From IMG/VR virus record IMGVR_UViG_3300030339_000196, positions 1 through 27,932 of that record: 27,932 nt of DNA. One strand, written 5' to 3'. The notes under the pieces are model-generated. The model was given only the letters and a program-made list of their open reading frames with translations. It ran no database searches and was not told where the DNA came from. A program made the position numbers and the translations under genes. Of the stretch, positions 5,483 through 25,158 are shown in pieces (positions within the stretch are counted from its first letter, which is position 1; each line of letters opens with the position of its first letter). The DNA comes from a virus.

Positions 5483-5507
5483 AAAAGAGCCTTGATGGCT
5501 CTTTTTT
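5481..5507. terminator. Bidirectional terminator between restriction enzyme and methylase
   Basis: AAAAAAGAGCC and GGCTCTTTTTT form an 11-bp stem with loop TTGAT. Each strand ends in a T-run. The hairpin overlaps the stop codons of both convergent genes, so it serves both. Confidence 0.9.
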
Positions 5508-6636
5508 ATTCAAATATCTCTTTATATGGCAAATTCAAAACCTCCTCTGCTGATAAATTTGAAGAATTAAAATATAATCCAATATATTTTTCAAAATCGT
5601 CATTTTTTAATTTTAAATATAAATTATCTAATTTTGATTTATCTTTATTTGTTATAACTAATACATGATTCTCAAAAACGTATTCATTATTATTCTTAAG
5701 GTAATAAAATTTCAATTTCTTTGATATAGTTCTTGGCATCAATATACAATTTGTGTGTTTGATATTCTCCCATACAATATACTTTTTCTTCTCCTGATTT
5801 TTTATATCTGTTATTTCTAATTTGTCTTTACCAATATGAGTAGAATATACTAATGTTTTTGTTTCAATATCATTTTCATTTGTTAGTTTTTCTTTATGCT
5901 GATTCCAAACCACCTCACCTATACTAACCTTAAACCCTTCATCCTTTAATGAAATTATTTGCTTTGGAAATCCAACAACATTTTCAGAAAAATATATGTT
6001 TTTACCATATTTTAAAATAAAGTCTTCAGTTACATTCTTCGTCTTTTGAATTATAATTAATGACACTTTTATAGCAACATTTTTAAAATTTACATCATTT
6101 TTAATGTGTAATATATTACAATTTTCGTGTATTAAACTTCTAATCTTATTATAATATGGACTTGTTAGTATTGAACTTGGAACCAAAAACGCTAATATTC
6201 CATCTTCTTCTAATAATTCTAAACATTTATAAATAAAAATATGTGTCAAATTCATTCTGCCATCACAAGATGCCTTATATAATTTGCTAAGTTCTTTCTG
6301 TTGTTCTTTATCATAAAAAGAATATGTCAATTCAATATATGGTGGATTACCAACTATGAAATTGTATTTTTTTGTTATTTCATTATAAATAAAATCTTTA
6401 TTAAATAAATTGACATTGATAAGATTAAACTTATCTTTAAATATTTCAGTGTCAATTTCATATGCGTCTATATTTAGATTGTAATCTTTAAAAACATCAA
6501 TAAAAGCACCATCACCAAAAGATGGTTCAAGACATTCTCCACTTAAATCAGCATGTTTTTTTATAATATTTACTATATCATTGACTTGATTGTTTTCTGT
6601 AAAATATTGACCATATTGTTGTTGTTTTTTCTTCAT
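5506..6636 (-). CDS. N6-adenine DNA methyltransferase (gamma class, TaqI/Eco57I-like)
   Basis: A 376-residue enzyme with the classic motif order: GQYFT at 9-13 (motif X), LEPSFGDGAF at 36-45 (motif I, S-adenosylmethionine binding), YEID near 59-62 (motif II), and NPPY at 97-100 (motif IV, catalytic). The remainder carries target recognition. It transfers a methyl group to adenine N6 in a specific DNA site. Its convergent partner is a PD-(D/E)XK nuclease, so it probably protects phage DNA from that enzyme, and it may also protect against host restriction. Confidence 0.9.
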   Translation of the reverse strand: MKKKQQQYGQYFTENNQVNDIVNIIKKHADLSGECLEPSFGDGAFIDVFKDYNLNIDAYEIDTEIFKDKFNLINVNLFNKDFIYNEITKKYNFIVGNPPYIELTYSFYDKEQQKELSKLYKASCDGRMNLTHIFIYKCLELLEEDGILAFLVPSSILTSPYYNKIRSLIHENCNILHIKNDVNFKNVAIKVSLIIIQKTKNVTEDFILKYGKNIYFSENVVGFPKQIISLKDEGFKVSIGEVVWNQHKEKLTNENDIETKTLVYSTHIGKDKLEITDIKNQEKKKYIVWENIKHTNCILMPRTISKKLKFYYLKNNNEYVFENHVLVITNKDKSKLDNLYLKLKNDDFEKYIGLYFNSSNLSAEEVLNLPYKEIFE

Positions 6637-9234: not shown

Positions 9235-10125
9235 ATGGAAAATAATTTTTATATTTATGCAATTTTAGATCCTAGAAAGAAAGAAAAATCAATATATTAT
9301 ATTGATAATTATGAAATAATATTTGAGTATAAACCATTTTATATAGGAAAGGGTAAGAAATGGAGATTAACTCAGCATTTTTATAATTGTAGTTTAAAAA
9401 AGAATACTTACAAAAATAATAAAATATTAAAAATAATTAGAGAAGGGTATAAACCTATTTCTATTAAAATAATTGAAAAATTAACTGAAATTGATGCTTA
9501 CAATCTTGAAATAAAAGTAATATCAAATATAGGCTTAGATAATTTAACGAATAAAACTATAGGTGGTATTGGACAATGTAGTATTTCAATAATAGGTGAT
9601 AAAAATCCAATGTTTGGTAAGCATCCGACAGCATGGAACAAAGGCACAAAAGGACTTTGTCCATCTAAATTTAAAGGTAAAAAAATAGAGGAAGTTTGTG
9701 GAGAAGAAAAAGCTAAAATAGCAAAGGAAAAACAAAGTAATAGTAGAAAAGGAAAAAGTTGGGAAGAATATTTTGGTGAAGAAACTGCTAAAAGAGTAAG
9801 AGAAGAAAGAAGTATTCAAAGAACAGGTTCAAAACATAGTGAAGAAACAAAGAGAAAAATGAGAGAAAAAATTACACCAGAAAGTATATTAAACTTAAAA
9901 ACTCTAACATTAGAAAAAAGAAAGAAAAAATTTGATACTGATTTTAACTCTGAAAAAGAAAATATAGTAAAAATGATAAACGACGGTTATGCGGATAATG
10001 AAATAATAAAAAGAATTATTAACATATCAAGGTTTAGACTGAAAAAAATGATTTTTTTAATAAAAAATAAACTTAATAGTGATTATTATTTTAAAATAGA
10101 AGAAAATGGAAAAGAAAACATTTGA
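9235..10125 (+). CDS. GIY-YIG homing endonuclease with NUMOD3-like repeats
   Basis: A 296-residue protein. The catalytic GIY-YIG domain is residues 1-100: FYIYAIL at 5-11 for GIY and PFYIGKGKKWRLTQH at about 35-49 for YIG, with the following conserved region. Residues 115-135 (GDKNPMFGKHPTAWNKG) and 190-205 (GSKHSEETKRKMRE) are NUMOD3-type DNA-binding motifs, and a helix-turn-helix-like tail follows. It cuts an intronless target and is copied by repair. The 3' end overlaps the next gene by 20 bases in another frame, which suggests insertion next to that gene. A strong hairpin precedes the start. Confidence 0.9.
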   Translation: MENNFYIYAILDPRKKEKSIYYIDNYEIIFEYKPFYIGKGKKWRLTQHFYNCSLKKNTYKNNKILKIIREGYKPISIKIIEKLTEIDAYNLEIKVISNIGLDNLTNKTIGGIGQCSISIIGDKNPMFGKHPTAWNKGTKGLCPSKFKGKKIEEVCGEEKAKIAKEKQSNSRKGKSWEEYFGEETAKRVREERSIQRTGSKHSEETKRKMREKITPESILNLKTLTLEKRKKKFDTDFNSEKENIVKMINDGYADNEIIKRIINISRFRLKKMIFLIKNKLNSDYYFKIEENGKENI

Positions 10126-11223: not shown

Positions 11224-12186
11224 TTAAATAGGTAAAAATTCGTCAATCCAACCATATTTTAATCCTACTACATAGGCTCTTGAAAAATTATTTTTTAATT
11301 CTTTTCTTGTTTTACATTCTTTAACTGCAAAAATAAAATTATTTTTATTCAACCAATATCCTTTATTTTTTTGTTTTTTAATGTCAGGAAAAAATTCATC
11401 CAACCAATTATTTTCACGACTAATAGTATAAGGTAAGCCAAATTTGTTAGAAAATTCTATACGATTTTTACATTTTTTAGCAACTTCAAAGCAATTATCT
11501 TTATTCAACCAATGTCCTTTAGGCTTAATTTTTCTTTCAATATGTGAAGTTATTTCATATAACCATTTATTTTTTATACTTGTTTTATACGCAGTACGAT
11601 GATCATTTCTACATTCATAAATAGTTTTACAATTTTTTAATTCTTCTTCACATTTTTCTTTTGTCCATATCCTTTTAATATTACCTCCTTCTCCACCATC
11701 ACCTAAATTTAACAAAAAATATAAATTATCATCTTTATACAAATTTATATTTTCAATTTCTATATTTCTTGCAGTTTCAATTGGCAATAATTCGTGATAG
11801 ATCCAAGATTTTTCATATATTAATTTATATTTTTTAATAAGATTATATAAATTGCCTGTCTTACAATTTAAATGTTCAGATAATCTTCTTTCAAAATTAC
11901 AAGTTAAACCAATATAAATATATTTTTTATCATCTAATAAAGATTTAAATATAATTTTATATCCAAATTTTTTATACATATCTCCCTTTTCTAGTAAAAA
12001 TTCATATGCCACATTCAACTTATTTATACTTTTCAAGTAAGTCCAAGCAGAATGATAATTTCTATTAAACTCTTGTCTAGAATTACATTTTTTTATAGCA
12101 TCTAAACATCTTTCTTCATTTCTCCAATAATATTTTTCACATCTATTGCTCATATCTTTATATATAAAATAATGAAAGTTCATCAA
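11224..12186 (-). CDS. GIY-YIG homing endonuclease with Trp/Cys repeats
   Basis: A 320-residue protein. The GIY-YIG domain lies near residues 70-160, with KKYIYIGLTCNFERRLSEHL as its centre and LNLGDGGEGG at its end. It is flanked by four copies of a roughly 45-residue repeat (one before, three after) of the form W-x-K-E/D-x-C-x-E-A-x-K-x-C-K-x-R-x-E-F...W-L-D-E; for example WTKEKCEEELKNCKTIYECR and WLNKDNCFEVAKKCKNRIEF. These are probable DNA-recognition modules. The gene is inserted antisense between a truncated kptA and the complete kptA. The frameshifted piece at 6663 has the same repeat. Confidence 0.85.
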   Translation of the reverse strand: MMNFHYFIYKDMSNRCEKYYWRNEERCLDAIKKCNSRQEFNRNYHSAWTYLKSINKLNVAYEFLLEKGDMYKKFGYKIIFKSLLDDKKYIYIGLTCNFERRLSEHLNCKTGNLYNLIKKYKLIYEKSWIYHELLPIETARNIEIENINLYKDDNLYFLLNLGDGGEGGNIKRIWTKEKCEEELKNCKTIYECRNDHRTAYKTSIKNKWLYEITSHIERKIKPKGHWLNKDNCFEVAKKCKNRIEFSNKFGLPYTISRENNWLDEFFPDIKKQKNKGYWLNKNNFIFAVKECKTRKELKNNFSRAYVVGLKYGWIDEFLPI

Positions 12187-12223: not shown

Positions 12224-12231
12224 TATATTTG
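12224..12231 (+). promoter_or_regulatory. TATATTTG promoter box before kptA
   Basis: TATATTTG 12 nt before the ATG at 12244 fits the Bacteroidota -7 box, giving a very short leader. It shows that the complete kptA has its own promoter after the antisense endonuclease. Confidence 0.6.
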
Positions 12232-12243
12232 CAAATAAATAAA

Positions 12244-12885
12244 ATGAATATGAACAATATATTACAGAAGAAAAGTAGAGAAATGAGTTACCTGTTAAGG
12301 CATGAGCCTGAAGACTTAAAAATAGACAAAAATGGCTATGTTTTAGTAACTGATCTATTAAAAAAATTAAACATATCATTACAAGATTTGGATGAAATTG
12401 TGTCGGATAATGATAAAAAAAGATTTGCTTTTAACACTTCAAAAGATATGATCAGGGCATCTCAAGGTCATTCCATTAAAGTTGATCTTCAGCTTAAAGC
12501 AACAAGACCACCAAGAGTTCTTTATCATGGAACAACTGATGAAAATTATCAAAAAATAAAGAAAACTGGTATAGATAAAGTTAAAAGACTTCAAGTTCAT
12601 TTATCAGATGATTATAAAACTGCATATTCTGTTGGTAAAAGGTATTCAAAGAATAAAGAACCACTCATTTTAGAAATTGATTCAGCAAAAATGAACACAG
12701 ATGGTTTCAAATTTTTAAAAAGTGCAAATGATGTTTGGATGACAGATAATGTGCCTGCAAAATATATAAGAGTACCTGAAATTTCTGATATTACTGGATA
12801 TCCTAAATGCAAAGATTGTGATAATGACAAATTAAACGGATGGAGTTCACATTGTAAAAGTTGTGGAATGCCTATTGTATATTAA
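12244..12885 (+). CDS. kptA: RNA 2'-phosphotransferase (KptA/Tpt1) with C-terminal zinc knuckle
   Basis: A 213-residue enzyme from ATG 12244; a TTG at 12229 lies within the promoter and is unlikely. Tpt1-family enzymes transfer an internal RNA 2'-phosphate to NAD+, yielding ADP-ribose 1'',2''-cyclic phosphate. The conserved Arg-His-Arg-Arg tetrad is visible: R19-H20 in SYLLRHEPED, R71 in IRASQGHS and R115 in KVKRLQVHLS, with the NAD-site VLYHGT at 92-97. After the usual end, residues 189-207 add two CxxC pairs (C189/C192 and C204/C207), a zinc-ribbon-like tail that most family members lack. Such enzymes repair RNA joined by 2'-phosphate-leaving ligases, fitting the RNA ligase and HAD genes in this window. 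Confidence 0.93.
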   Translation: MNMNNILQKKSREMSYLLRHEPEDLKIDKNGYVLVTDLLKKLNISLQDLDEIVSDNDKKRFAFNTSKDMIRASQGHSIKVDLQLKATRPPRVLYHGTTDENYQKIKKTGIDKVKRLQVHLSDDYKTAYSVGKRYSKNKEPLILEIDSAKMNTDGFKFLKSANDVWMTDNVPAKYIRVPEISDITGYPKCKDCDNDKLNGWSSHCKSCGMPIVY

Positions 12886-17714: not shown

Positions 17715-17787
17715 CCCTTGTTAGCTCAGTTGGTAGAGCAGAAGACTCTAAATCTTTGTGTCACTGGTTCGAATCCAGTACAAGCGG
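17715..17787 (+). tRNA. Amber suppressor tRNA, anticodon CTA (copy A)
   Basis: The D-arm is GCTC/GAGC with loop AGTTGGTA. The anticodon stem is GAAGA/TCTTT with loop CTCTAAA, which gives anticodon CTA reading UAG. The T-stem is ACTGG/CCAGT with loop TTCGAAT. The acceptor CCCTTGT pairs with ACAAG-GG if C17785 is looped out, otherwise one C-C mismatch remains. The loop is the same as that of the classical supF amber suppressor. The amino acid cannot be assigned from sequence alone. Confidence 0.8.
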
Positions 17788-17795
17788 GCAAAAAT

Positions 17796-17867
17796 GATCT
17801 TGTAGCTTAACGGCAGAGCAATTGACTCTAAATCAATTTGTTGTGGGTTCGACTCCCATCAGGATCT
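17796..17867 (+). tRNA. Amber suppressor tRNA, anticodon CTA (copy B)
   Basis: A regular 72-nt cloverleaf. The acceptor is GATCTTG/CAGGATC, the D-arm GCTT/GAGC, and the anticodon stem ATTGA/TCAAT with loop CTCTAAA (anticodon CTA). The T-stem is GTGGG/CCCAT with loop TTCGACT, and the discriminator is T. No CCA is encoded. The body differs strongly from copy A, so the two suppressors probably derive from different tRNAs and may insert different amino acids. Confidence 0.9.
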
Positions 17868-17872
17868 CAATT

Positions 17873-17951
17873 CGGGGGGTAGCTCAGTTGGTTTAGAGCG
17901 TCTGTTTTTACGAGCAGAAGGTCACATTTGGTTCAAATCCTGTCCCCCTGC
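17873..17951 (+). tRNA. Irregular tRNA with 8-nt anticodon loop (Val TAC-like)
   Basis: The acceptor CGGGGGG pairs with CCCCCTG, and the D-arm GCTC/GAGC is regular. The anticodon stem TCTGT/GCAGA encloses eight bases, TTTTACGA. Counting from the 3' side gives anticodon TAC (Val) with one extra T; a four-base reading would be TTAC. The T-stem pairs only if TTT is looped out (ACA-TTT-GG with CCTGT). No CCA is encoded. Either an unusual tRNA or one with base-insertion errors. Confidence 0.6.
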
Positions 17952-17953
17952 CT

Positions 17954-20826: not shown

Positions 20827-23013
20827 TTACCTACTTGGATATCTATTATTATTATTATTCATTGACGGTCTATTTCTATATACTCTACTATAAGCACCGG
20901 CAACTCCTTCAGTATTATTTGATTTACTAGTTATACTTTCTACAAATCTTAAAACATCACCAGACAAATTACAATTAACAAGCATATCCACAAGGTTCTT
21001 ATAACCAATATTATCAAATGCTGTTGATAACGTTATAGTTGACATAACAACATCATCGTGCCCACTTTCTGCGCGATAAGTTACATTTCCAGAAGTAGTT
21101 TCGTGCTTACTAAATGTTGTAATTTCATTTATATTAACTTCACTATGCAATATCATTCTTCTATTTCTAATTGATTGTTGAAATTCTTTATCTATAATTA
21201 AATGTTTATCTTTTGTCAACCTTAAACCTATTTTAGTTACAATATCTTCCCTATTTTGTTTATATCTTAAAAATATTGAATTAGAATATTGATTATCACC
21301 ATCAAAAACATTAGGTAAATGTGTTAAAAACTCTGAACCATAAGTATTATTCTCTAAAACAACTTTTACTTTTTCTGAATCAAACAATTCAAATGCGATT
21401 AAATAAAAAATATGAGCAACCTCACGAATAGAATAAAGATTATTTCTATACAAACCAATTTGCTCAATTTTGAACAACTCATAAAGACTTTCATACTTGT
21501 GCTTTTCAATCTCAGATTTATCACGCAGGGTGAGCTTAAATATGTTTAAAACCGAATAATCCTTGGCAAGTCCTTCTGATAAATCCACAGAAATCAAAAT
21601 ATAATAATCTTTAACTTTTTGTATATTGAAAAGATTTGGGTCTCTAACAAATTTCAACGATTCATAAGGAATATTTAATCTATTAAATTGCGGAAATTCA
21701 ATATAATCAAATGGTAACTGCTTACTTTTTAATAAATCAATAGTTTCTTTATTAAAAAGAATTCTATCGCCAGTAACAAAATGTAATCCATATTCTTGAT
21801 CAAATTTTTCTGCTGAACCAATAAGTTTTGTTTCTTCTTCTTGCCAATTAGAAACAACGGCCAATTCAGGTAATGGTATTCCATTTATACGAATTTTTCT
21901 AATATTATCTATATAAGTTTTTTCATCTTCAATTTCATATTTAACACAATCTATAATATCATCACCAACAGTTTTCTTATATAATTTAATATCATAATTT
22001 TCTCTAATTTCTCTTAACACTATAGATTTAGAAAGACCATACTTTTTTAATTTAAAATCCATTATTTTAATTTTAGTATCTTCACGTCCAGGTACTTGAT
22101 TCCAATACACCCTCATTGCCTTATATGGGTTCTTATTTGGATCTTCATCAGGCAATTCAGCAGCAGTTATCAATTCCCAAAACATATTATATCCACAAGG
22201 TGTAGAAGTTATTATAATCCTAGAATTTTCAACAGAAGATACTACTGGAATAATAGCTCCATAATAATCTCTAATAAAATTATCTGGAATATGAGCAAAC
22301 TCATCAAGATACAAAAGGTCAATAGTAAATCCAATTGATGGCTCCTTTGTTCTATTTTCTGTTTGAATACGGGAATTATTTTCAAATGCAATTTGTGTTT
22401 CATTCCAGTTTGTAACGCCTTTCTTCAGAAAGAATGGCAATAATTTATAAATATCTTTAATTTTTCTAATGATTTCTTTTACAGTTTTACCTTTATTTGC
22501 AACAATCATACATCCTTTATCATCATTAAACAATACAAAATGCAATAAAACAATAGCAGCAGATACTGTATTATGTGATAATATATCATTAGTATAATAA
22601 CTCATTTCAGGAGTATCAATTGATAAATCAAACATACTCACTTTACCATACATTTTTTTAATAGACACAACTCTACTTAAGCCTTGCTTAGTTAAAACAT
22701 AATCATCTGTAGTTAAAGTTATAAGCATTTTAGGCTCATAATCTTTACAAAAAACAATGTGTGTATCTGCACCTTCTAACCATAAATTATTTTCTAGTTT
22801 TAATCTATATCTTTGAAATGGTTGTGTTATATTTATTTCTGTTACAGGAACCATTCCATAATCGGTTTCAACTAATAATTCTTGATCTAAAAAAATAGTA
22901 TTAACGAATTTCTTTAGTATATCATCCTCATTAGGATTGAAATTTCTAAATTCATATCTTTCTATCAATTGAATTATAAAATATATTACATTTTTTATTA
23001 TATTTTTTAGCAT
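20827..23013 (-). CDS. C-terminal half of split large terminase, preceded by a C-intein
   Basis: 728 residues. Residues 1-148 are the C-terminal part of a split intein. A hydrophobic helix (MLKNIIKNVIYFIIQLIERY) comes first, then GADTHIVF at 81-88 (block B, His87... region), FDLSIDTPEMSYYTNDILSHN ending at N148 (blocks F and G, penultimate His147), and nucleophile T149. Residues 149-728 are terminase: TVSAAIVLLHFVLF continues the Walker A motif, LLYLDEFAHIP is Walker B, and VDLSEGLAKDYSVLNI, VVLENNTYG and GHDDVVMS are nuclease motifs. Trans-splicing with the product at 24649 would give a 695-residue T4 gp17-like motor that pumps DNA into the prohead. Alone it lacks the P-loop lysine and cannot bind ATP normally. 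Confidence 0.92.
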   Translation of the reverse strand: MLKNIIKNVIYFIIQLIERYEFRNFNPNEDDILKKFVNTIFLDQELLVETDYGMVPVTEINITQPFQRYRLKLENNLWLEGADTHIVFCKDYEPKMLITLTTDDYVLTKQGLSRVVSIKKMYGKVSMFDLSIDTPEMSYYTNDILSHNTVSAAIVLLHFVLFNDDKGCMIVANKGKTVKEIIRKIKDIYKLLPFFLKKGVTNWNETQIAFENNSRIQTENRTKEPSIGFTIDLLYLDEFAHIPDNFIRDYYGAIIPVVSSVENSRIIITSTPCGYNMFWELITAAELPDEDPNKNPYKAMRVYWNQVPGREDTKIKIMDFKLKKYGLSKSIVLREIRENYDIKLYKKTVGDDIIDCVKYEIEDEKTYIDNIRKIRINGIPLPELAVVSNWQEEETKLIGSAEKFDQEYGLHFVTGDRILFNKETIDLLKSKQLPFDYIEFPQFNRLNIPYESLKFVRDPNLFNIQKVKDYYILISVDLSEGLAKDYSVLNIFKLTLRDKSEIEKHKYESLYELFKIEQIGLYRNNLYSIREVAHIFYLIAFELFDSEKVKVVLENNTYGSEFLTHLPNVFDGDNQYSNSIFLRYKQNREDIVTKIGLRLTKDKHLIIDKEFQQSIRNRRMILHSEVNINEITTFSKHETTSGNVTYRAESGHDDVVMSTITLSTAFDNIGYKNLVDMLVNCNLSGDVLRFVESITSKSNNTEGVAGAYSRVYRNRPSMNNNNNRYPSR

Positions 23014-23028
23014 TTAATTTTCTTTATT

Positions 23029-23625
23029 TTATTTCCAAATATACAAACCTTTATTATTCAGCAATCCTTCGCAATAATTCATATCTATATTATAATTAGG
23101 AAAAACTATAGATAATATATGTTTATATATTCTAATTTTTTTCTGTAACACAGTATCACCAATTATAAAATATTTTGGAATATTAATATTATCTAAAATA
23201 TTACCAATTCTAACTAAAACTTCTTTTTCTTCATTTAATGCTGTTAAATCATCATATTCAAAATCATCAACATCATATTTATCTAATGTAAATGATATAT
23301 TCCAAACAAACTCACTATTTATTTTTGAATTAAAATTTTTCAACGGAGCTAAATCAATTCTATATTTATTACCAGATTCAGTTTTAAACCATATTTTATA
23401 TCCAGATTTATCATAATTTGAATAACTTGAATCAAATTTAAAAAATTCAATTTCACACTCTGTATCATCATATTTTTTATCAAAAGATTCTAATATGACA
23501 TTTCTATTAAATCTTTCAAAAGTATATATCTTCAAAAAAGTACTAATTCTATCAGATAGATTATGATTATTAACATAATTAATATATGTCTTATTAGTTG
23601 TTGAAATAGATTTAGTTTTTATCAT
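23029..23625 (-). CDS. Unknown protein between the split terminase halves
   Basis: 198 residues. The start overlaps the stop of the homing endonuclease by 4 bases (ATGA), so the two are translated together. The sequence is acidic and Asp/Asn/Tyr-rich with beta segments (YKIWFKTESGNKYRIDLAPL, VWNISFTLDKYDVDDFEYDD) and ends LLNNKGLYIWK. I do not recognise a family. Its place between the intein halves makes it a passenger of the split, or a gene that was there when the terminase was broken. Confidence 0.65.
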   Translation of the reverse strand: MIKTKSISTTNKTYINYVNNHNLSDRISTFLKIYTFERFNRNVILESFDKKYDDTECEIEFFKFDSSYSNYDKSGYKIWFKTESGNKYRIDLAPLKNFNSKINSEFVWNISFTLDKYDVDDFEYDDLTALNEEKEVLVRIGNILDNINIPKYFIIGDTVLQKKIRIYKHILSIVFPNYNIDMNYCEGLLNNKGLYIWK

Positions 23626-24590
23626 AAATTTAAATATTTTTTACACTTATCTAAAATCATATCTTTTCGGTTTTTATATTCTGAATCCCATATAGTCAAC
23701 ACTTCAAAACCATTTTCTTCAGCAACTTGTTTTTTCCTTTCATCTTTATCCCACATTTCTTGTGCTGTTATATTTTTTCTAAATGGATGAGGACAATCAG
23801 AAGTTTCATATAAATTTGGATTTGCATGATATTCATCACCATTATATTCTATTATTTTTTTATTCTTTAAATCAACAAAATCATATAGCCAAACACCGCC
23901 TTCTTTTTTATTTAACCGATATTCTTTATTTTTAGTAGCAAAAAATATGAATTCTTTATCTTTAACTAAATCATAATAATTTAATAATTCATAAAACAAT
24001 ATTTGTGAAACATTTGAATATCCATATTTTAAATTTCCATTTTCAGTTAAAGATTTTTGCCATTTTTCTTGTCTTTTAGTATAAATTTTTTTACCTTCAA
24101 TTTCACCATATTTTTCAATACATTTTTCTAAAGTAAAGGTCAATTGTCTTTCTTTTAATTTTTTTTTAGCATCTTCTTTATTGAAACCTTTATTTATCCA
24201 ATAATCTAATCTTACTGTATATGATTTTTTATCACACACTCTTTTAACAAAATTATTTTTTTCTTCAATAGTATAATAATTTTTAAAATTATTTGAAAAT
24301 GGAGATCCTGATTGTCTTTTTTCTAAAGTAGTTTTTGATTTATGATTAGGATTTTTTTCTCCCATAATCTTTTCTGAAAACATTTTTTTATATTTTTCGG
24401 TTTTCATATGCTTTCCACTATTTATTGAGGTTTTCTTATTATCTGTTTCAGTATATAAAGGTTCACCTGGGTACATATTTTTATAATCCTCAGACGTTAT
24501 ACCATGTGATTTCAAGTGTCTACCATAAATTCTTTGAGATTGAAATCCGCATATTTTGCAAGTAATAAAATCATTTTCCTTATTTTCCAT
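23622..24590 (-). CDS. Vsr-like (EDxHD-type) homing endonuclease
   Basis: 322 residues. The N-terminus (FITCKICGFQSQRIYGRHLK, then HGITSEDYKNMYPGEPLY) is a MucR/Ros-like zinc finger that is common in phage homing endonucleases. The C-terminal catalytic region (WLYDFVDLKNKKIIEYNGDE, then YHANPNLYE, and WDKDERKKQVAEENGFEVLT) matches very-short-patch-repair nucleases: acidic residues in DFVD and EYNGDEYH with the following His, and the DxxKxxxxxxxG core. Free-standing Vsr-like endonucleases between split intein halves are a known arrangement in environmental phage genes. It would cut terminase alleles without the insertion and so spread the split. Confidence 0.85.
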   Translation of the reverse strand: MENKENDFITCKICGFQSQRIYGRHLKSHGITSEDYKNMYPGEPLYTETDNKKTSINSGKHMKTEKYKKMFSEKIMGEKNPNHKSKTTLEKRQSGSPFSNNFKNYYTIEEKNNFVKRVCDKKSYTVRLDYWINKGFNKEDAKKKLKERQLTFTLEKCIEKYGEIEGKKIYTKRQEKWQKSLTENGNLKYGYSNVSQILFYELLNYYDLVKDKEFIFFATKNKEYRLNKKEGGVWLYDFVDLKNKKIIEYNGDEYHANPNLYETSDCPHPFRKNITAQEMWDKDERKKQVAEENGFEVLTIWDSEYKNRKDMILDKCKKYLNL

Positions 24591-24594
24591 AATC

Positions 24595-24610
24595 TTTTTT
24601 ATTCTATATA
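24595..24610 (-). promoter_or_regulatory. TATATAGAATAAAAAA element before the homing endonuclease
   Basis: On the minus strand TATATAGAATAAAAAA is followed by GATT and the ATG at 24590, almost the same as the block before the RHH gene at 7007. This could give the endonuclease its own promoter inside the split terminase locus. Confidence 0.5.
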
Positions 24611-24648
24611 TAAATATTTATTGGTCGCATTTAGTCAAAATGGTAAAA

Positions 24649-25158
24649 TTATTGTAATTTATATAATATTTTATATAAAAATACTTTTATATTTTCTAAT
24701 AGCATTAACTTTCTTTCCTTCTTAACTTCATTATAATAAAGAAAGCCAATAGGAATTTTTACTGTTTGTCCTGATTCCGAAACAACTAACACATTGGTTA
24801 TAAAGGAGTTACACTTACCCGTCTGACGGCTCGCCATCAATATACTTCTAGGATTTTTTGTATATAAATCTATAATATCTTTTTGGTAATCCCTAAGTGT
24901 CATTGGTCCAATTGTACCATCTTCTCTCTTAATTTGACAATAATGTTCAGCAAAATAATGAATATTAATTTTACATTTAATATATTCTTCAAATTCATCA
25001 TCTGTCATAGCAAATGTCACATTTGCTTTACGAACACCTCTTGTATTTGAAAACCAAAGTTTTTCGTGCCTTTTTAATATTCTTCCTAAGTTCTCTTTCT
25101 CTTCAATATATTTTATTATATCTGTTGTTAAAATAAAACTATCATCTTTTTCCGCCAT
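24649..25158 (-). CDS. N-terminal half of split large terminase fused to an N-intein
   Basis: 169 residues. Residues 1-115 are the terminase N-terminus (HYFAEHYCQIKREDGTIGPM, LRDYQKDIIDLYTKNPRSIL) ending in the Walker A start ASRQTGK at 109-115. Residue C116 begins the intein: CNSFITNVLVVSESGQTVKI (block A), then a Lys-rich turn and a hydrophobic helical tail ending FLYKILYKLQ, followed by TAA. The 54-residue N-intein is shorter than the roughly 100 residues of common split inteins and resembles the atypically split terminase inteins. Its partner is the 148-residue C-intein at 23013, 1.6 kb downstream. Without splicing the P-loop lysine is severed from the following Thr. Confidence 0.93.
   Translation of the reverse strand: MAEKDDSFILTTDIIKYIEEKENLGRILKRHEKLWFSNTRGVRKANVTFAMTDDEFEEYIKCKINIHYFAEHYCQIKREDGTIGPMTLRDYQKDIIDLYTKNPRSILMASRQTGKCNSFITNVLVVSESGQTVKIPIGFLYYNEVKKERKLMLLENIKVFLYKILYKLQ

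Follow-up and report, generated by a model that had tools for sequence, protein, structure and literature searches.

A large terminase gene in two halves bounded by an atypically split intein in a metagenomic virus fragment

How a virus could drive DNA packaging with a large terminase whose ATP-binding loop is divided between two genes is the question raised by IMG/VR record IMGVR_UViG_3300030339_000196 (positions 1 to 27,932), a metagenomic fragment of 27,932 nt hereafter referred to as the window. On its minus strand a gp25-like baseplate gene (25586-25176) is followed by the N-terminal half of the large terminase gene (terL), a nuclease-like gene, an open reading frame (ORF) of 198 aa and the C-terminal half of terL (Table 1). 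The N-half ends with the beginning of an intein (IntN) and the C-half starts with the remainder of it (IntC). On the evidence given below, we consider it highly likely that the large terminase is a two-gene protein, predicted to be joined by trans-splicing through a naturally split, atypically cut intein. An initial annotation of this DNA had proposed the split, but was silent on the two genes lying between the halves, and also missed the fractured-gene organization with a homing-type nuclease, its wide occurrence and the dispersal of the halves through the genome.

The terL junction and the intein

The extein/intein boundary (here marked by a slash) reads MASRQTGK/CNSFITNV... in the N-half and DILSHN/TVSAAIVL... 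in the C-half. The joined exteins (115+580) amount to 695 residues, as the initial annotation had calculated from ORFs 25158-24649 and 23013-20827, and the terminase profile phrog_5989 matched the N-half as far as its position 170 and the C-half from its position 159 onwards. Scanning of IMG/VR with the terL C-half and with the intein C-part retrieved about 130 distinct contigs, including two intein-free alleles very close to the window at the protein level, L027 (97% identity in the N-extein, 89% in the C-extein) and L045 (96% and 93%, respectively). In both of them ASRQTGK/TVSAA is read without interruption, thus showing that the junction is exact and not due to chance; twelve further loci have the empty site as well. 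The location of the break inside the Walker A P-loop (GK/T), suggested earlier from the window alone, is borne out by these alleles.

As judged by sequence profiles and predicted fold, the element is a real split intein. When a profile of 34 IntC sequences was searched against all PDB chains, the matches were led by VidaL (7.8e-9), gp41-1 (1.1e-8) and CatC (3.2e-8), the third of 14, with NrdJ-1 also found (4.8e-4); the kinship with the atypical terminase inteins and the similarity to intein blocks, for which the initial annotation had advised profile searches, were both recovered in this way. The Pfam Intein_splicing domain was detected in 29 of the 34 family members (best 3e-10). Since alignments mixing IntN and IntC rows misplaced two similar helices, the AlphaFold model was built from the IntC rows only, together with the unsplit relative L078, its first 12 residues being of low confidence. 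Residues 83-194 of the L078 model form a confident beta (HINT) fold, with predicted local distance difference test (pLDDT) values mostly of 83-97, and the Foldseek search with this model was led by VidaL (1.6e-7), with gp41-1 and CatC also in the top five. Positions invariant or nearly invariant among the 34 IntC sequences include A82, D83, H85 (block B), D129, N142 and N148, and the window retains Cys1, the block B His, the penultimate His, Asn148 and Thr+1. From these features, the split intein of the window is very probably functional.

Selection was estimated as the ratio of non-synonymous to synonymous polymorphism (pN/pS) from 91 closely related pairs (21 in the case of the nuclease). 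Values were 0.206 for the N-extein, 0.221 for IntC and 0.212 for the C-extein, thus IntC is constrained as tightly as the motor itself; they were higher in IntN (0.42) and in the nuclease (0.41).

The two terL ORFs would be translated separately and the intein parts would associate, with probable docking of the helices at the IntN tail and at the IntC head. In the assembled HINT fold, as judged from the conserved residues and from homology to active inteins, an N-terminal thioester would be formed at Cys1, the chain would be transferred to Thr+1 and Asn148 would cyclise, leaving a normal peptide bond between K115 and Thr116. Splicing would restore the Walker A GKT, until which neither ATP hydrolysis nor DNA packaging would be expected of the separate halves, and the nuclease would carry the whole cassette into intein-free terL genes.

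Several observations weigh against this interpretation. The window IntC, searched alone, gave no Pfam or NCBIfam intein match, and its block B Thr and block F His positions are occupied by Ala and Met, respectively; according to the profile alignments, VidaL also has Ala at the former position and CatC lacks His at the latter, and both are reported to be active (PMC13014065, PMC11766414). A sister clade is devoid of the penultimate His (NLN/T) and in one phage, LR756500, the terminal Asn is replaced by Gln (SSQ/T), so that splicing efficiency may vary among members. Fold matches of the nuclease are weak (E 0.006-0.035). Finally, the window is a fragment of 28 kb and another terL may be present elsewhere in the same genome. 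A second intact TerL, which the initial annotation had recommended looking for, was found neither in the 735-kb nor in the 462-kb relative carrying the split.

As candidates for a rescuing second terminase, the TerL-like paralogues of LR756501 (L096:1468-2637) and LR756500 (L006:833-1645) were rejected, as they read RQMGIT and RQMGIS instead of GKT, having lost the P-loop Lys, and have no nuclease domain. Such an ATPase-only paralogue is present in several of these huge phages, L098 and L127 also among them. Recoding of TAG as the origin of the apparent N-half stop was likewise discarded, since the window N-half ends with TAA. The N-halves of L011 and L072 end in TAG, with the next stop only about 10 codons further. 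Suppression of TAG in the window phage is possible: only one of 31 window ORFs checked ends in TAG. Positions 17715-17952 hold two tRNAs with a CTA anticodon, which ARAGORN calls Pyl, and another tRNA of odd type.

Table 1. Features of the split terL locus in the window
Feature	Position	Strand	Remarks
terL N-half ORF	25158-24649	-	169 aa; TerL 1-115 plus 54-aa intein start
TerL N-extein, residues 1-115	24814..25158	-	ends ASRQTGK (first half of Walker A); phrog_5989 4e-19
Intein N-part (IntN), 54 aa, CNSFITNVLVVSESGQTVKIPIGFLYYNEVKKERKLMLLENIKVFLYKILYKLQ	24652..24813	-	homologous N-parts in dozens of contigs
Intein Cys1 (C116) codon	24811-24813	-	
Helix-forming IntN tail, MLLENIKVFLYKILYKLQ	24652..24705	-	LEKIKxxLYxxLxxL kept in relatives; equivalent to the beginning of the long helix modelled for the unsplit L078
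N-half stop TAA	24649-24651	-	
Putative homing endonuclease, 322 aa	23622..24590	-	ROS/MUCR-like zinc region and Vsr/EDxHD-like nuclease region
198-aa ORF between the halves	23029..23625	-	also between the halves in L011, L044 and L047
terL C-half ORF	23013-20827	-	728 aa; 148-aa intein end plus 580-aa extein
Intein C-part (IntC), 148 aa, ATG start to LSHN	22570..23013	-	PDB split-intein profile matches; HINT fold of the unsplit relative; pN/pS 0.22
Helix-forming IntC head, MLKNIIKNVIYFIIQLIERYEFRN	22942..23013	-	conserved in relatives; equivalent to the latter portion of the long helix of L078
Block B His (H85 of the C-part, in GADTH)	22759..22761	-	H85 column invariant in 34 sequences
Block G penultimate His147 and terminal Asn148	22570..22575	-	N148 almost invariant; one clade has Leu instead of H147
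+1 Thr of the C-extein (P-loop Thr after GK)	22567..22569	-	Thr throughout the TerL members and likewise in intein-free alleles
TerL C-extein, 580 aa (rest of ATPase and nuclease)	20830..22569	-	PF03237 (Terminase_6N) 1.6e-7; PHROG terminase matches
C-half stop	20827-20829	-	

Occurrence, nuclease gene and dispersal of the halves

An N-half in a separate ORF was located for 67 distinct C-intein sequences (the underlying tally has 68 rows, from which L092, a truncated copy of the window, was dropped). The single-ORF form was represented by five distinct sequences, namely L078 and four cultivated Ackermannviridae. The window region is copied exactly and in full in two other IMG contigs (L008 and L009), and split versions are found also in cultivated phages, such as Agrobacterium phage Atu_ph07 and Delftia phage PhiW-14; a scan of GTDB gave only ten matches, all in metagenome-assembled contigs. 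In L169 the terL N-half is spread over two ORFs (108 and 35 aa) with an intact C-half; the break may be either a frameshift or an additional split. At the identical GK/T site of terL, L025 and L043, whose TerL N-extein is 96% identical to that of the window, carry a different, unsplit intein of 344 aa, unrelated to the window intein, which starts with AQDLD, ends with PTHN/T and shows LAGLIDADG-like motifs by eye.

The nuclease family represented in the window (A12) sits between the halves in 44 of the 67 distinct split loci. In this family a zinc region resembling ROS/MUCR is combined with a DUF559/MTES_1575-like end. Fold comparison of its model placed Vsr (0.006) and I-Bth0305I (0.035), a homing endonuclease, at the top, and the profile search of PDB returned 3hrl (0.022) and 3r3p (0.047) first; the scores are weak, but the class they indicate is the one described for fractured genes. 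Occupied and empty alleles were present together in each of two metagenomes (identifiers 3300031521 and 3300029989), which is consistent with homing and no more. Based on the predicted fold, the position of the gene and these coexisting alleles, the nuclease is most likely a homing endonuclease spreading the cassette into intein-free terL.

The split is kept without the A12 family in the remaining 23 of 67 loci, some of which hold other nuclease genes: other nuclease-like ORFs replace the family between the halves in L018, L029 and L076. In L047 the nuclease appears decayed, and in L181, L174, L170, L034 and L158 it is absent, with the halves just 20-134 nt apart. The 198-aa ORF, for which neither PHROG nor, above cut-off, Pfam gave a match, is retained between the halves in L011 though the nuclease is gone there.

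Over the last 21 nt of the window N-extein (24814-24834), DNA identity to the closest empty allele is 62%, against 92-97% further upstream, with the protein unchanged; this may be a trace of co-conversion or of recoding at a nuclease site. No general co-conversion footprint is claimed, as the averages were alike (0.75 for occupied-occupied and 0.74 for occupied-empty comparisons). The window also holds two GIY-YIG nuclease genes (9235-10125 and 11224-12186), an Eco57I-like methylase gene (5506-6636) and an RNA 2'-phosphotransferase gene (12229-12885).

In other members of the family the two halves have moved apart. They are separated by 12.4 kb, with unrelated genes on both strands between them, in LR756501 (735 kb); the gaps in three IMG contigs from its clade are about 12 kb, about 9 kb and at least 11 kb. 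This clade with gaps of about 10 kb is the one without the penultimate His (NLN or SLN/T), L146 being an exception with a gap of 2.2 kb. A 271-kb contig has the halves 67 kb apart, the C-half adjoining a tail-sheath-like gene and the N-half an SbcC-like gene (names assigned by eye). G008 carries its C-half on the plus strand and its N-half on the minus strand, about 22 kb away and still near a gp25-like gene as in the window, and in L199 the halves also lie on opposite strands. With the nuclease absent or the halves moved apart, trans-splicing would be the sole route to a motor in these lineages.

A related split intein was found at the Walker A site (NGGK/C ... LSHN/S) of a DnaB-like helicase in three contigs (L128:631-1356 and 1438-2595; L129:805-1956; L130:1444-2604), in genomes that also have a split terL; in L128, where both helicase parts were located, these meet at phrog_19 profile positions 366/367. 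In LR756501 the gene adjoining the terL N-half (L002:17919-19004) is ribonucleotide-reductase-like and has an intein-like start, NPC/IVGDTLIAVADG. In the cultivated Salicola phage SCTP-2 (MF360958; 440 kb), TerL is apparently encoded in three genes (L213:1465-1857, L204:2965-3894 and L211:1381-3465, at about 429 kb on the minus, 256 kb on the plus and 216 kb on the minus strand) with consecutive PHROG coverage across the three pieces and two split inteins, one at Walker A GK/T and one at Walker B LLY/C, and a further unsplit intein in the third piece.

Alternative explanations

A first alternative admits that trans-splicing is real but holds that the arrangement is kept as a delay, leaving the motor off until both halves are made and joined. 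The equal constraint on IntC and motor, together with retention of the split both without this nuclease family and where the halves are separated, would fit such a role. However, the need to splice for any TerL to be produced explains the constraint equally well, and empty alleles occur in the same samples; we therefore regard the delay as an unlikely reason for the arrangement.

It is considerably less probable that the two chains associate unspliced into a two-chain terminase, with the intein parts serving as a clamp only. The altered catalytic residues of some members (NLN/T, SSQ/T) and the tight association suggested by the helix pair would be in line with it, but the Walker A loop, cut at GK/T, would have to bear 54 plus 148 extra residues at its tip, and the splicing residues, from Cys1 and the block B His to the penultimate His, Asn148 and Thr+1, are all retained in the window.

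Joining of the halves at the RNA level, by a self-splicing intron with an endonuclease gene lying between them, has precedents: interruption of terL by introns and homing endonucleases has been found in phage ICP1 and reported for Jug phages (PMC10448857, PMC12363816). Nonetheless, no group I or group II intron was detected in the window by Rfam at E<=1, the sole results being tRNAs and, below threshold, a single match lying on a tRNA, and both ends of the interruption are preserved at the protein level as intein sequence, with a HINT fold and under purifying selection. Moreover, the halves of other members are encoded on different strands or are separated by as much as 67 kb with intervening genes, and no single transcript of one strand can join such halves; distances of 9-67 kb and opposite strands are a strong argument against RNA splicing, which we hold to be hardly credible here. 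A dead allele or an assembly artefact, conceivable for a metagenomic fragment, can be practically dismissed given the exact full-region copies in L008 and L009, the same split in 67 distinct sequences, cultivated phages included, and the lack of frame damage with pN/pS of about 0.2.

The split site and known systems

The earlier division into 54 N-terminal and 148 C-terminal intein residues, described as atypical, agrees with the ORF anatomy. Natural atypical split inteins are reported with an IntN of 15-37 aa, cut either after beta-2 (VidaL, PolB16) or after helix 1 (AceL-TerL, GOS-TerL) (PMC13014065); in most relatives of the window IntN measures about 50-65 aa. Its end is a conserved helix-like tail and IntC starts with a second helix-like stretch (xxxIIYFLIQLIEKYEFRN). 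In the unsplit L078 the two segments are directly consecutive and form a single helix in the AlphaFold model (residues 37-70), so that the cut would fall inside a helix. This helix is absent from the 159-aa intein of phage Magnus, and the CatC match does not extend over it. The helix halves at the cut probably serve as a docking element between IntN and IntC. In a tree based on few columns, L078 is placed inside the split group (support 89/92), a position that suggests re-fusion of a split intein. More tentatively, the TerL split-intein lineage of huge phages might have evolved the helix pair for partner recognition, freeing the halves to separate (up to 67 kb or on opposite strands) and allowing the motor to be built from independently expressed genes, with the same-family intein in the helicase Walker A of some genomes keeping to its own partner; we hold this possible but rather doubtful.

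As an abundant natural source of atypical split inteins whose helix-bearing split site had not been reported, the family could be of use in protein ligation. Its loci also seem to represent an evolutionary series from empty site through unsplit intein, nuclease cassette and nuclease absence to dispersed halves. A further consequence is that TerL, a main marker gene in the classification of huge phages, will be overlooked or truncated when their genomes are annotated. Whether protein splicing is simply tolerated by phages or serves them to gate ATP-driven packaging also becomes a question open to testing.

Among known systems, AceL-TerL and GOS-TerL (consensus CatC, PDB 6dsl) are alike in the host gene, terL, and in being split near the N-terminus after helix 1, with an IntC clearly similar in profile and fold to that of the window family. 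They differ in the IntN, reported to be 25-37 aa long (PMC11766414, PMC13014065) against 54 aa here, in the helix found here on each side of the cut and, as for GOS-TerL, in the reported Ser1/Cys+1 pair (PMC11766414). By contrast, the +1 residue is Thr in all TerL members here, in agreement with the less common choice read earlier in the window. Given the differences in IntN length and +1 residue, the window intein was filed, on sequence grounds, as a relative and not a member of the AceL/GOS-TerL group. VidaL (PDB 6vgv), the best match in sequence and fold, shares the Ala at the block B Thr position, but its IntN has 16 aa and is cut after beta-2 (PMC13014065), unlike the 54-aa IntN of the window. 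The terL inteins of Ackermannviridae, such as Klebsiella phage Magnus, occupy the same GK/T site (...ARQSGK/C ... LSHN/TTVVAAF) and have a related C-part, but that of Magnus lies in one ORF (159 aa) with neither helix pair nor nuclease gene. In the jumbo phage MIJ3 a putative split PolB intein with a homing nuclease between the halves likewise goes with a split gene, although both the gene (PolB) and the nuclease class (HNH) are others than in the window (PMC6892783).

As in the window, fractured genes consist of two halves with split intein parts around a free-standing nuclease gene, which in the window is a putative member of the Vsr/EDxHD class. Such genes, with split inteins and Vsr-like homing endonucleases, were reportedly described by Dassa et al. 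in 2009. The present family differs from them in that the gene is terL, the split site bears a helix, the nuclease is often absent and the halves are sometimes dispersed over many kb or on opposite strands. From the described atypical split inteins it is set apart by the 54-aa IntN, the helix on each side of the cut and the dispersed halves. A split intein in a fractured gene is a known phenomenon, of which the present variety is new and widespread in very large phages.

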